DNA of 37,613 bases from Candidatus Taylorbacteria bacterium (GTDB lineage: Bacteria > Patescibacteriota > Minisyncoccia > Phycocordibacterales > HO2-43-120). The notes under the pieces were generated by a model that was not told where the DNA came from, did not search any database, and saw nothing but the letters and a program-made list of their open reading frames with translations. The stretch lies in assembly GCA_039934295.1 (NCBI GenBank), contig JBDTMN010000012.1, positions 1 through 37,613 on the forward strand. The letters are read 5' to 3'. Positions 25,553 through 28,793 of this stretch are shown here, one piece after another. A program made the position numbers and the translations under genes. Numbering within the stretch: the first letter of the stretch is position 1; each line of letters starts with the position of its first letter.

Positions 25553-26824
25553 TTACAATACTTCTTTCATCATCGGAATTCCCAGCCGTTTTCGCTCGGT
25601 TTCGCCCCGAAAGAGCGATCTTTTTCTCTCTGCGTTCACTCCCCTTTCTCCCCCATGCTGTTTGCGCATTGCGCTCATGCTCGATGCGAGGAAAACTACA
25701 TGTTTGCCGAATTTGCGCGATAAGCGGTCAACTTTCTCGTAGAGCGCGCTTTTGTCCGCCGATTTCTTGTGCTCTCCGAAAAAGTCAGTCTGGATTATGT
25801 TTCCGAAAGAGAGATTTCTCAAAACAACTCCCGTTGTCCGATAGAGATTTTTCGGTTTCCAGATTTGGTCGAAATTTCTTTCAACCGACTGCATAACTTT
25901 TTGCGGGTCATTTGTCGGGTATTCGAGCGATGCATCCGCCGAAAAATAATTGAACTCCTTGGTCTTAATAAAAAAACTGATTTCTTTCGCTTTCAGGTTG
26001 TATCGGCGCACTTTTATGCAGGCATTTTCTGCGTTCTTGGAGAGCTCGGATAAAAGGACCGCTCTCTCTCCCGACGCTGGGGTAAATGTTCTCGTCTTTG
26101 AGATGGATTGGTACTCGGTTTTCTTTTCATCTCGCACATGGTAAAGAGACGTGCCTCGAAGTTCGTGCCATATTTCCACATAGGGTTTATTCATATGTTC
26201 GTTCACCCACTCCTCTCTCATTTCCGTAAAATCGAGAGCAGTTCTAACCCCGTGCTTCCAAAGAGAGATTGCGGTTGCCATGCCTATGCCCCAGATTTTT
26301 TCGATTGGAATTGCTCCAAGATATTTCGGAGATTCTTCCCGCGTGATTATGGTCAAGCCGTCAGGCTTTTTAAATTTTGACGCGGCTTTGGCAAGCACTT
26401 TCGTCTCCCCCACTCCCAAAGAAAAAGTCATACCAAGCTCTGCTTGGAGCGTGTTTTTTATTTTTCTTACGATCGCTTCGATGTTTTCTTTTTTTAGCTT
26501 GAGCTCTGACAGGTCGGCAAAACATTCATCTATGCTGTATTCTTCCACTGTGGGAACAAAACGTCTTACGATGGCGTACATGCGCTCCGAGAGGATGCTG
26601 TATGTTTCGTAGTCGGAGGGAAGAATAATAACATCCGGACATATTTTTCTCATTTCAAAAAGTCGCATGCCTCTCGTGATTCCGCGCGCCTTGGCTTCGT
26701 AGGTCAAAGCCGATGCGATGCCCCTCTCGAGCCCGGTTACTACCGGTTTGCCTTTGAGACGGACATCGAGCGACACCTCGCATGAGGCGAAAAAAGCGTC
26801 TCCGTCAATGTGCAGAATCGGCAT
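25553..26824 (-). CDS. Y-family DNA polymerase (Pol IV/UmuC-like)
   Basis: 423 residues. MPILHIDGDAFFASCE supplies the first metal aspartates (Asp7, Asp9), EEYSIDECFADLS the Asp99-Glu100 pair, and SLGVGETKVLAKAASKFKKPDG and IWGIGMATAISLWKHGV the thumb. The C-terminal little-finger domain (ISKTRTFTPASGE to VVLRNLSF) is complete. It copies damaged DNA with low fidelity in the SOS response. The final about 60 residues are basic and could hold a clamp-binding motif, which I cannot pin down. Upstream on the same strand lie a 65-residue gene (50-base gap) and a lexA/umuD-type gene, a UmuDC-like cassette. Confidence 0.95.
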   Translation of the reverse strand: MPILHIDGDAFFASCEVSLDVRLKGKPVVTGLERGIASALTYEAKARGITRGMRLFEMRKICPDVIILPSDYETYSILSERMYAIVRRFVPTVEEYSIDECFADLSELKLKKENIEAIVRKIKNTLQAELGMTFSLGVGETKVLAKAASKFKKPDGLTIITREESPKYLGAIPIEKIWGIGMATAISLWKHGVRTALDFTEMREEWVNEHMNKPYVEIWHELRGTSLYHVRDEKKTEYQSISKTRTFTPASGERAVLLSELSKNAENACIKVRRYNLKAKEISFFIKTKEFNYFSADASLEYPTNDPQKVMQSVERNFDQIWKPKNLYRTTGVVLRNLSFGNIIQTDFFGEHKKSADKSALYEKVDRLSRKFGKHVVFLASSMSAMRKQHGGERGVNAERKRSLFRGETERKRLGIPMMKEVL

Positions 26825-26836
26825 AGGAATGCAAGG

Positions 26837-26864
26837 TGTTAGCTGTTAGGTTTTAGCTTAAGGG
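26837..26864 (+). repeat. Heptamer array TGTTAGN in the polymerase gene gap
   Basis: TGTTAGC, TGTTAGG, TTTTAGC, TTAAGGG in exact 7-base register, filling most of the gap between the 65-residue gene and the polymerase start. Confidence 0.65.
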
Positions 26865-26874
26865 AGAATGAAAA

Positions 26875-27072
26875 TTACAAGAGGAAGGAAAAAAAAGATA
26901 AGGAACGGGGCAGCCATTTCTTGCCGGTGAGCGTGCGGAGGCGGGAAAGAAGAAATTTGTGATGTTTGGAGTCGCTCCCATAAGGAACACCCTTGATAAT
27001 CTTTCTATCAATTTCCCTGTTCACCTTTTTCAATTCCTTGTATATTTCAATTTTTGTTCTTGTTTTGCTCAT
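26875..27072 (-). CDS. Small hypothetical protein in the lexA-polymerase cassette
   Basis: 65 residues, very basic: MSKTRTKIEIYKELKKVNREIDRKI followed by GVPYGSDSKHHKFLLSRLRTLTGKKW and a hydrophobic tail. The helix plus SDSKHHKFLLSRL block reads like a short helical DNA- or protein-binding module. I know of no function. It sits between the LexA/UmuD-type gene and the polymerase, where no gene is usual in umuDC operons. It starts 8 bases from a heptamer array. Confidence 0.65.
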   Translation of the reverse strand: MSKTRTKIEIYKELKKVNREIDRKIIKGVPYGSDSKHHKFLLSRLRTLTGKKWLPRSLSFFSFLL

Positions 27073-27079
27073 TTTTTTG

Positions 27080-27159
27080 TGTAACCTGTAACGTATAACT
27101 TATAACGTCTGAAAAAAGATCTTCATTCTTACGTTACACGTTACAAGCTACACGTTACA
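27080..27159. repeat. Inverted heptamer array, copy 1 (downstream of lexA)
   Basis: TGTAACC, TGTAACG, TATAACT, TATAACG (27080-27107), a 24-base spacer starting TCTGA and ending TTCTTA, then CGTTACA, CGTTACA, AGCTACA, CGTTACA (27132-27159). Every unit is in exact 7-base register. It fills the whole gap between lexA and the 65-residue gene. Confidence 0.88.
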
Positions 27160-27165
27160 CTTCTG

Positions 27166-27735
27166 CTAGTACTTCCTAATCACCGCCCTCACCACCGCCA
27201 CGACCTTCATATTTTCTTTGGGGAAAATTGGCCGGTATTTTTTGTTCGCCGGCTCCAGCCACATGAGTCCTCCCTTTTTCCGCAAATATTTCATCGTCCA
27301 TCCGCCGTCAACTTCCGCTATCACGATGTCTCCTTCTTTGGGAGGAATTCCACGTTCCACCAAGACCATATCTTTTTCCTGAATTCCGGCGTCTATCATC
27401 GAGTCTCCTTTTACCTCGAGCATGTAGGTGGCTTCCTTGTTGTCAATCAGGTATTCATCTAAGTTCATCGTGTCTTGCAGTTCTTCCTCCGCGGCCGAAG
27501 GGAATCCCGCTTCCACAAGCCCGAGCACTTTTATGTCTCCGAAGATTGAGTTTGGAGTAAGGCGACCTTTCGAGTCTTTGGAGACGAGCCCGTCTTCGAT
27601 AAGATGCTTCACGAGCTTGTATGCGGCATTTTTGGACTTGAAGCCGACGAGTTGCATAATCTCGCTCAATGACGGCATCCGTCTCTTGTTTTTATAAAAA
27701 GAAGATATTTTGTTTTTGTATTGAATGTAGGACAT
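27166..27735 (-). CDS. lexA: LexA/UmuD-type self-cleaving repressor
   Basis: 189 residues. The N-terminal winged helix (MPSLSEIMQLVGFKSKNAAYKLVKHLIEDGLVSKD) fits a LexA-like DNA-binding domain. The peptidase domain has the Ala76-Gly77 cleavage site in VEAGFPSAAEE, Ser112 in KGDSMIDAGI and Lys149 in GWTMKYLRKK. The EAGFPSAAEE segment resembles UmuD. Having the DNA-binding domain, it is a repressor rather than UmuD proper. In the SOS response RecA filaments trigger its self-cleavage, freeing the genes it blocks. A 16-base dyad sits between its own -35 and -10 boxes. Heptamer arrays lie on both sides of the gene. Confidence 0.93.
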   Translation of the reverse strand: MSYIQYKNKISSFYKNKRRMPSLSEIMQLVGFKSKNAAYKLVKHLIEDGLVSKDSKGRLTPNSIFGDIKVLGLVEAGFPSAAEEELQDTMNLDEYLIDNKEATYMLEVKGDSMIDAGIQEKDMVLVERGIPPKEGDIVIAEVDGGWTMKYLRKKGGLMWLEPANKKYRPIFPKENMKVVAVVRAVIRKY

Positions 27736-27742
27736 GAAAGAG

Positions 27743-27835
27743 TGTAACGTGTAGCATGTAACTTGTAACGTCTGAGGGTCAGGATAGGAAATCTTTCTTT
27801 TTTCTTACGTTACAGGTTACACGTTGTGTGTTACA
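27743..27835. repeat. Inverted heptamer array, copy 2 (lexA leader)
   Basis: TGTAACG, TGTAGCA, TGTAACT, TGTAACG (27743-27770), a 37-base spacer starting TCTGA and ending TTCTTA, then CGTTACA, GGTTACA, CGTTGTG, TGTTACA (27808-27835). It occupies nearly the whole lexA mRNA leader, ending 8 bases from the ATG. Confidence 0.88.
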
Positions 27836-28046: not shown

Positions 28047-28793
28047 ATGGCTTGGAACCCCAAGCGACAATTTAGTTCTGTTGGGTATCGCGAGCACGTT
28101 CAGAGGGTCGCTAGCGAAACTATGGGCGGTCACCGAACGCCCACCATCGGTGGCGAGACGCACTTGCCCCACTGGTGGATTCAAAGTGAGATCAGAGTTT
28201 TCTGGGACGTTGCAATTTCGCGGCAAACCGTTGACCTGATCGTCAAGGCAGTTGATGAGCGGATTCGGGAGACCATCGGTCTGCCGTTTCGCTTCAAGTT
28301 CCACGGCTCTCACCCGAGCGCCATGGAGCAAGTGGTAGATGCCACCATTAACGATGAAATTGACGAGCAACGGCTCTTCGCCACAGCTCTTTCCGAGAGC
28401 TGGCGTGATCTGTGTCATGGTGGTCAGCAACATGCTGATATCTACATCACGAACAAAGCGTTTCTCAACGATACTGTTTCCTGGGGTGCAGCTGATTTCA
28501 AATTCGGCGCGATGGTTTTCTGTCTGTATGGCAATCGAAGCCAAAGTCAGGAGTTCCTGCGCAAGGTCGCCCTCCACGAAACAAACCATCTGCTCGGTAT
28601 GTACTGCCACTGCGACGATTACCAAAACGTCGAAGAACTGAGCTACACGCCGAGTTGCAACATGCACTACAGTTGTCCAAGCGACGATCTGTGTCCCAAG
28701 TGCGTCGAATTCATTCGGCATTGGTGGGCGCAGATTGAATACGAATACGAGCAATCGTATGGAGAATTGCAACAAAAAATGGGCTTATCGTAA
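28047..28793 (+). CDS. Divergent archaemetzincin-like metalloprotease
   Basis: 248 residues; AAGGAGG 5 bases before ATG 28047 fixes the start. VALHETNHLLGMYCHC (His177, Glu178, His181, Gly184) gives the metzincin zinc motif. CNM (204-206) could be the Met-turn of archaemetzincins (family M54), and DLCPKC (216-219) the CxxC that with other cysteines binds a second zinc. In classical members the third histidine follows HExxHxxG by three residues; here that position is Cys187, with His188 next to it, and spacings to CxM and CxxC differ. No signal peptide, so probably cytoplasmic. Substrate unknown. The family call is good but not certain. Confidence 0.75.
   Translation: MAWNPKRQFSSVGYREHVQRVASETMGGHRTPTIGGETHLPHWWIQSEIRVFWDVAISRQTVDLIVKAVDERIRETIGLPFRFKFHGSHPSAMEQVVDATINDEIDEQRLFATALSESWRDLCHGGQQHADIYITNKAFLNDTVSWGAADFKFGAMVFCLYGNRSQSQEFLRKVALHETNHLLGMYCHCDDYQNVEELSYTPSCNMHYSCPSDDLCPKCVEFIRHWWAQIEYEYEQSYGELQQKMGLS

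Follow-up and report, generated by a model that had tools for sequence, protein, structure and literature searches.

Heptamer arrays flanking a lexA-type gene in a Taylorbacteria-like genome as probable ORF-less copies of a mobile hairpin family akin to ribosomal intervening sequences

The two inverted heptamer arrays that flank a lexA-type gene in the stretch of DNA analyzed here (the window; all 37,613 nt of contig JBDTMN010000012.1) are probably ORF-less, MITE-like copies of a family of small mobile hairpins, that is, intervening sequence (IVS) elements that reside in gene spacers and not in 23S rRNA. The window belongs to a Candidatus Taylorbacteria-like Paceibacteria genome of 1,046,490 bases (1.05 Mb) in 25 contigs. 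We observed shared inner ends, inverted heptamer arms, an association with IVP ORFs across phyla, joint divergence of arms and protein, and filled and empty orthologous sites. IVP (23S_rRNA_IVP or S23; Pfam PF05635) is a four-helix-bundle protein known from the IVS of bacterial 23S rRNA (PMC4990558). In its full form, an element of the proposed family would comprise an array of about four heptamers, GTCTGA, an IVP/S23 ORF, TTCTTAC and the array again in inverted orientation.

One element directly follows lexA and the other directly precedes it, and the coordinates confirm the reported placement on both sides of the gene (Table 1). In element 1, the direct arm (27080-27107; TGTAACC TGTAACG TATAACT TATAACG) is separated by a 24-nt spacer (27108-27131) from the inverted arm (27132-27159; CGTTACA CGTTACA AGCTACA CGTTACA). 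Element 2, which matches the strict core pattern, consists of the direct arm TGTAACG TGTAGCA TGTAACT TGTAACG (27743-27770), a 37-nt spacer (27771-27807) and the inverted arm CGTTACA GGTTACA CGTTGTG TGTTACA (27808-27835). Both spacers begin with TCTGA and end with TTCTTA. A first-pass annotation of the DNA had described direct heptamers, such a spacer and inverted heptamers in exact 7-base register. Both elements are indeed present, but the third inverted unit of element 2 is degenerate, and the register is kept inside each arm but not across the spacer. A third array, of TGTTAGN units, had been placed at 26837-26864; about three of its units are real and form a single arm, but the last (TTAAGGG, 26858-26864) does not match. 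The long hairpins envisaged for the two elements are supported by predicted RNA folds of -36.6 kcal/mol (z -7.9) for element 1 and -25.6 kcal/mol (z -4.2) for element 2.

Table 1. Heptamer elements and neighboring host genes around lexA in the window
Feature	Position	Strand	Description
Y-family DNA polymerase gene (impB/mucB/samB)	25553..26824	-	PF00817, E 3e-43; host gene
Single-arm array, second heptamer family TGTTAGN	26837..26857		About three units; in the gap from orf65 to the polymerase gene
orf65	26875..27072	-	Start codon 7 nt from the element 1 arm; host gene
ORF-less element 1	27080..27159		Between lexA and orf65; 4 TGTAACN + core GTCTGA...TTCTTAC + 4 NGTTACA
lexA-type gene	27166..27735	-	Peptidase_S24, Pfam PF00717, E 1e-27; weak LexA_DNA_bind; host gene, outside the element
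ORF-less element 2	27743..27835		Upstream of lexA; 4 TGTAACN + core GTCTGA...TTCTTAC + 4 NGTTACA (one degenerate)

With their four plus four heptamers, the window elements possess the stem of about 28 bp from terminal inverted repeats that characterizes an IVS, as well as the intergenic tandem arrays with a period of exactly 7 that define the heptamer SSR/STRR class. Two further IVS traits are missing from them: they lack an IVP/S23 ORF, which is present in two full TGTAACN copies of the same genome, and they lie between lexA, orf65 and the polymerase gene, not in 23S or 16S rRNA helices. A Pfam scan returned no match for orf65. Elsewhere in the window, tandem repeats of about 147 bp (two to three copies, 82-90% alike) occupy the contig start (1-423), and a 248-residue ORF with a HETNHLLGMYCHCDDY motif, an HExxH-type metalloprotease signature, lies at 28047-28793, with the lexA cassette on one side and a stomatin-like gene on the other.

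Arrays of the kind seen in the window are far beyond chance. With at most one mismatch allowed, TGTAACNTGTAACN matched the whole genome 122+77 = 199 times, compared to 2+3 = 5 times for the reversed pattern, and TGTTAGNTGTTAGN gave 73+64 = 137 matches as opposed to 7+2 = 9. Almost all TGTAACN-pair matches fall into spacers between genes. Arms and junctions were counted in stretches fetched around the genome matches; these held 55 TGTAAC array clusters beside unrelated genes and 71 TGTAAC array ends with 2-8 units and a clear mode of 4 (36/71). The commonest inner junctions, GTAAGA (23/71) and GTCTGA (15/71), stand opposite each other in most full elements, and the element is therefore an imperfect palindrome with a conserved two-base asymmetry. 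It was found in both orientations, and a third heptamer family, CGAAATN, is located between groES and groEL of the same genome. The idea of a binding platform specific to lexA, and the clustering at lexA that had been proposed as a check, gave way before this distribution: the sites are not confined to lexA or SOS genes, neither heptamer family is tied to lexA, a lexA operator platform is not supported, and we rejected a lexA-specific element. A search of Rfam gave one sub-threshold chance match only, and among 2.9 million viral contigs, only 9 stretches contained TGTAACN four-unit arrays. Several TGTAACN elements have a second, REP-like hairpin (CCTAAACCCGTCCGAC..GTCGGACTAGGG) nested within their heptamer arms (L069 1080-1197, L082 4523-4645, L054 1174-1330, L075 1506-1641).

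A second check, for unit-level covariation between the two arms, found none: arm identity was 0.702, versus 0.696 in shuffled pairs, and agreement of the bases at the N position was 0.452, versus 0.347 shuffled (92/2000 shuffles). Given this lack of covariation, pairing is possibly not under strong selection, and the stem may rest on concerted evolution of the repeats rather than on selection for each base pair.

In the host genome, a gap of about 400 bp between the two arms of some pairs is taken up by an ORF. Three arm-enclosed ORFs, of 118, 118 and 123 residues, were assigned to Pfam 23S_rRNA_IVP (PF05635); for two that were scanned directly, the E-values were 2e-27 and 6e-39, with bAvd as the second Pfam match, IVP being related to bAvd, an accessory protein of diversity-generating retroelements. 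Two TGTAACN elements each enclose a 118-residue PF05635 ORF, and one of them (L329, C9:30364-30812) has TGTAAC arms and the inner ends GTCTGA...TTTTCTTAC of the lexA elements, in the layout ...TGTAACgtctgagaagag...ATG[ORF]TAAttttcttacGTTACA... As L329 shares both arms and inner ends with the lexA elements, the latter are best read as ORF-less elements of the L329 type. The genome encodes seven PF05635 ORFs, nearly all bearing heptamer arms, and these arms represent at least four heptamer types; among them is TGTTAGN, the unit of the single-arm array of the window, which also flanks the PF05635 ORF of L319.

We collected 130 PF05635 ORFs from 71 genomes or plasmids and scored their flanks for period 7 (score of at least 9) and for an inverted match between the two sides (score of at least 16). 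At 107 non-redundant Patescibacteria loci, period 7 was present in 48.6% of flanks, compared to 13.8% of control flanks taken at these loci, a set that itself includes ORF-less arrays; periods other than 7 reached at most 8% of flanks. The two flanks matched in inverted orientation at 66% of the 107 loci, versus 5% for mismatched pairs and 5% for the direct orientation. With a looser inverted threshold of 14, 92/107 loci had period-7 flanks, an inverted flank match or both, and about one-seventh of the Patescibacteria IVP loci showed no clear arms. In an earlier set of 16 plasmid loci from cyanobacteria and Riemerella, some of which are close relatives of one another, 75% had period 7 and 81% an inverted match, compared to 3% in 150 control ORFs. 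The same build was observed in cyanobacterial, Bacteroidota and Azospirillum plasmid copies; the Azospirillum copy (L366), judged by eye, apparently lies within a 23S rRNA-like gene stretch. On cyanobacterial plasmids, IVP elements with clear heptamer arms lie between cas6 and cas4 (L359, L361), and one with weaker arms lies between cas10 and cmr3 (L369). Such insertions might be taken for CRISPR-associated genes.

Of 297 genomes in the order, only the host genome has the strict TGTAACN core element. A genome of the same genus (G001) contains no TGTAACNTGTAACN, and its orthologous gene pairs are free of the elements; between its groES and groEL genes, a different heptamer, TTAGAAA, forms an inverted array. 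Arrays with a period of exactly 7 recur in the spacers of relatives, with 12 in G043 and 6 in G001 versus at most 1 at other periods in either genome, and 14 at the lexA loci of 80 relatives versus 0-2 at other periods; several relative genomes had no period-7 arrays in the spacers examined. Thus, the period and the inverted build are common to the relatives, and the heptamer sequence is private. The first-pass annotation had equated absence from all close relatives with plain microsatellites. TGTAACN is indeed absent there, but a microsatellite origin does not follow, because other genomes show the same build with other heptamers.

Filled and empty sites could be compared directly within one genus, in which the nifS-sodA spacer is 40 bp long and empty in G222 and about 66 bp long in G189 and G006; in G090 and G148, it is occupied by IVP elements whose heptamers differ. 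Together with the absence of the elements from orthologous spacers of G001, this corresponds to the sporadic presence and absence among relatives that is typical of IVS. The IVP tree does not track the insertion site, as the spacer upstream of a PrgI-like gene holds different IVP clades in at least six genomes. The spacer upstream of this type IV secretion gene appears to be a hot spot with differing heptamers (L319, L321, L326, L332, L339, L352).

With same-genome pairs excluded, heptamer similarity rose from 3.55/7 at an IVP identity below 25% to 5.1/7 at 60-90% identity (r 0.24; 0/2000 permutations as high), while the reverse-complement control gave r -0.015. Heptamer arms and IVP ORF evolve together. 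This joint divergence of sequences fits recognition of the heptamer by IVP, but it is also expected from co-inheritance alone and is no proof of binding. Genomes amplify a heptamer type found on one of their own IVP elements: there are 22 TAGTGAG pairs in G027 versus 0-7 in other genomes, and 93 TAGGTTG pairs in G005 versus 0-10 elsewhere, with an IVP element of G005 (L350) having TAGGTTT-type arms. There are two exceptions. G032 has an IVP element and no heptamer amplification; G043 (96% complete) has no PF05635 match despite many inverted heptamer arrays of several types, its IVP having been lost, diverged too far or been replaced by another protein. Examples of the G043 arrays are at L275 11251-11334 and L278 15372-15451.

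Most elements occupy spacers between co-directional genes, with the closest arm usually 6-16 nt from a start codon and 3-20 nt from a stop codon. The first TGTAAC unit itself provides the stop codon of the upstream gene in eight cases. In 27/33 Patescibacteria IVP arms, the unit contains a stop codon when read in the direction of the ORF, compared to 15/33 on the reverse complement, and heptamers with a stop codon end all three frames within three units; plasmid copies gave 8 versus 9 of 23, and a stop codon in the unit was rejected as a general rule. Several elements are located within prepilin genes, where they form a translated portion of the leader (e.g., MKSKMQKRFSRVTCYKLHVTYSRG before FTLIEM); prepilin peptidase probably removes the repeat. 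Arrays of both heptamer families were found in frame within such leader peptides, immediately ahead of the GFTLIE cleavage site (L058 1001-1275, L072 and L080; C8, C17 and C2).

The closeness of arms to start and stop codons, the strong hairpins and the rarity of Shine-Dalgarno-like motifs in the genus (2/31 and 16/187 ORFs, with crude start calls) would also suit regulatory leaders or protein platforms that control the translation of neighboring genes or the SOS response, much like the role suggested for the TAACTGA repeats of Beggiatoaceae. We consider such a role unlikely to account for the arrays, which lie beside unrelated genes genome-wide, are absent or replaced by another heptamer at orthologous genes of the sister species, and in some cases sit within translated prepilin leaders. 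This distribution looks like tolerance of the arrays by their neighbors, and local effects are possible.

Plain heptamer microsatellites, in which polymerase slippage creates the tandem units and template switching the inverted pairs with no mobility involved, would agree with the variable unit number, with the missing covariation of the arms, with the differing heptamer numbers of Coxiella strains (PMC4990558) and with the heptamer excess already known in bacteria (Mrazek 2007, as cited in PMC4692102; PMC6344855). This origin also seems improbable to us: copying is required to place one and the same unit, together with its asymmetric inner ends, at many unlinked loci; both the period of 7 and the inverted match are specific to PF05635 ORFs; and the unit sequence tracks the IVP protein. 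REP/REPIN-like palindromes moved by a Y1 (RAYT, PF01797) transposase via single-stranded hairpins are a very improbable source, since, despite the palindromic build, the spacer location, the conserved 2-nt stem asymmetry and three Y1 genes in the host genome, none of these three (0/3) is flanked by TGTAACN arms, Y1 genes are also found in G001, which is without the TGTAACN family, and are absent from G043, which has heptamer arrays, and two TGTAACN elements enclose PF05635 ORFs instead; Y1/RAYT was rejected as the mobilizer.

The proposed IVS-like family resembles MITEs and REPINs in its short palindromes and in having many ORF-less and few coding copies with the same ends. Unlike in those systems, no transposase was found, the arms are heptamer arrays instead of a fixed terminal repeat, and inspection by eye revealed no target-site duplications, the relatives being too diverged. 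In rRNA, an IVS is excised by RNase III at the stem of its terminal inverted repeats, and some rRNA IVS, of roughly 100 nt, have no ORF. Unlike the ORF-bearing rRNA IVS, the window copies are ORF-less and lie between protein genes, and there are tens of copies per genome. Rare ORF-bearing beside many ORF-less copies, lineage-private heptamers and the location outside rRNA thus set the family apart. Cyanobacterial STRR heptamers (Nostoc/Calothrix relatives) are alike in that plasmid IVP ORFs there are flanked by such arrays; to our knowledge, and in the works cited by PMC4692102, STRRs have been described as tandem repeats only. With the 23S rRNA IVS that carry an S23p/IVP ORF (Leptospira, Coxiella and others), the family has in common the IVP ORF of its full copies, tandem heptamers beside the ORF and a sporadic distribution (PMC4990558). 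In the Coxiella 23S IVS, the stem measures 28 bp, (GACAGAT)n heptamers lie beside the S23 ORF, and RNase III cuts at the start of the first repeat (PMC4990558); this IVS shares terminal inverted repeats with our elements, its stem corresponding to four heptamers.

Comparable arrays are known outside rRNA. In Xanthomonas and Nostoc, GGGAATC / GGGGA(C/T)T arrays are intergenic, mostly comprise four units and lie near the upstream ORF, and there are about 70 close inverted heptamer pairs per Xanthomonas genome (PMC4692102). Our elements share the intergenic heptamers, the most frequent unit number of four and the inverted pairs, and of the solved structures closest to IVP (2GSC and 2RLD), 2GSC (XCC0516) comes from X. 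campestris. The Xanthomonas/Nostoc arrays were explained by G-quadruplexes, and a link to PF05635 is not described for them (PMC4692102); in contrast, TGTAACN has no G-tracts, and its four units therefore need no quadruplex explanation. In view of the inverted Xanthomonas arrays (PMC4692102) and the Coxiella IVS heptamers (PMC4990558), the earlier statement that no element with this build has been described is not quite right. In marine Beggiatoaceae, TAACTGA heptamers, described as direct repeats with one inverted case, lie right upstream of start codons genome-wide, where ribosome-binding sites are few, and were read as binding sites of a translation regulator (PMC4679880). Our arrays likewise lie upstream of starts genome-wide, and one IVP element (L331) has TAACTGA-type arms; unlike the mainly direct Beggiatoaceae repeats, they are inverted. 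Among about 7,000 prokaryotic genomes, tandem heptamers are the most abundant intergenic tandem repeats, with no clear clue to their function (PMC6344855). This excess and the Xanthomonas/Nostoc, Beggiatoaceae and Coxiella repeats were published separately. In literature that was mainly open-access, with subscription papers and preprints little covered, we found no paper joining the four reports; priority is uncertain.

We suggest that the 28-bp arms of an IVS-like spacer element would pair in the operon transcript and be cut there by RNase III, an enzyme encoded in the host genome, as in rRNA IVS, and that insertion between genes would be tolerated because of this cut in the four-heptamer stem. 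The IVP protein would recognize its own heptamer and help the element and, in trans, its ORF-less copies to spread. In Patescibacteria, the heptamer often contributes a stop codon, at several sites that of the upstream gene, and the downstream arm stays open and is even translatable, as in prepilin leaders. This explanation is weakened by the missing arm covariation, by arrays without PF05635 in G043 and an IVP element without amplification in G032, by the IVP loci that have no clear arms, and by the window copies being ORF-less and outside rRNA.

Somewhat more speculatively, the elements may represent an unnamed, bacterial-wide class of mobile hairpins, in which each IVP reads its own heptamer and the element and its ORF-less copies spread through gene spacers; rRNA IVS, cyanobacterial STRRs, the Xanthomonas and Beggiatoaceae arrays and the general prokaryotic period-7 excess may then have a common origin. 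The IVP link could account for the abundance of seven-base repeats between bacterial genes and offers a testable answer to the question of intergenic tandem heptamers; since the same elements are present in cultivable cyanobacteria, a direct test is feasible. PF05635, an orphan four-helix-bundle family, would thereby be given a likely job. If true, rRNA IVS would no longer be a curiosity but the rRNA-dwelling members of a genome-wide class of elements.
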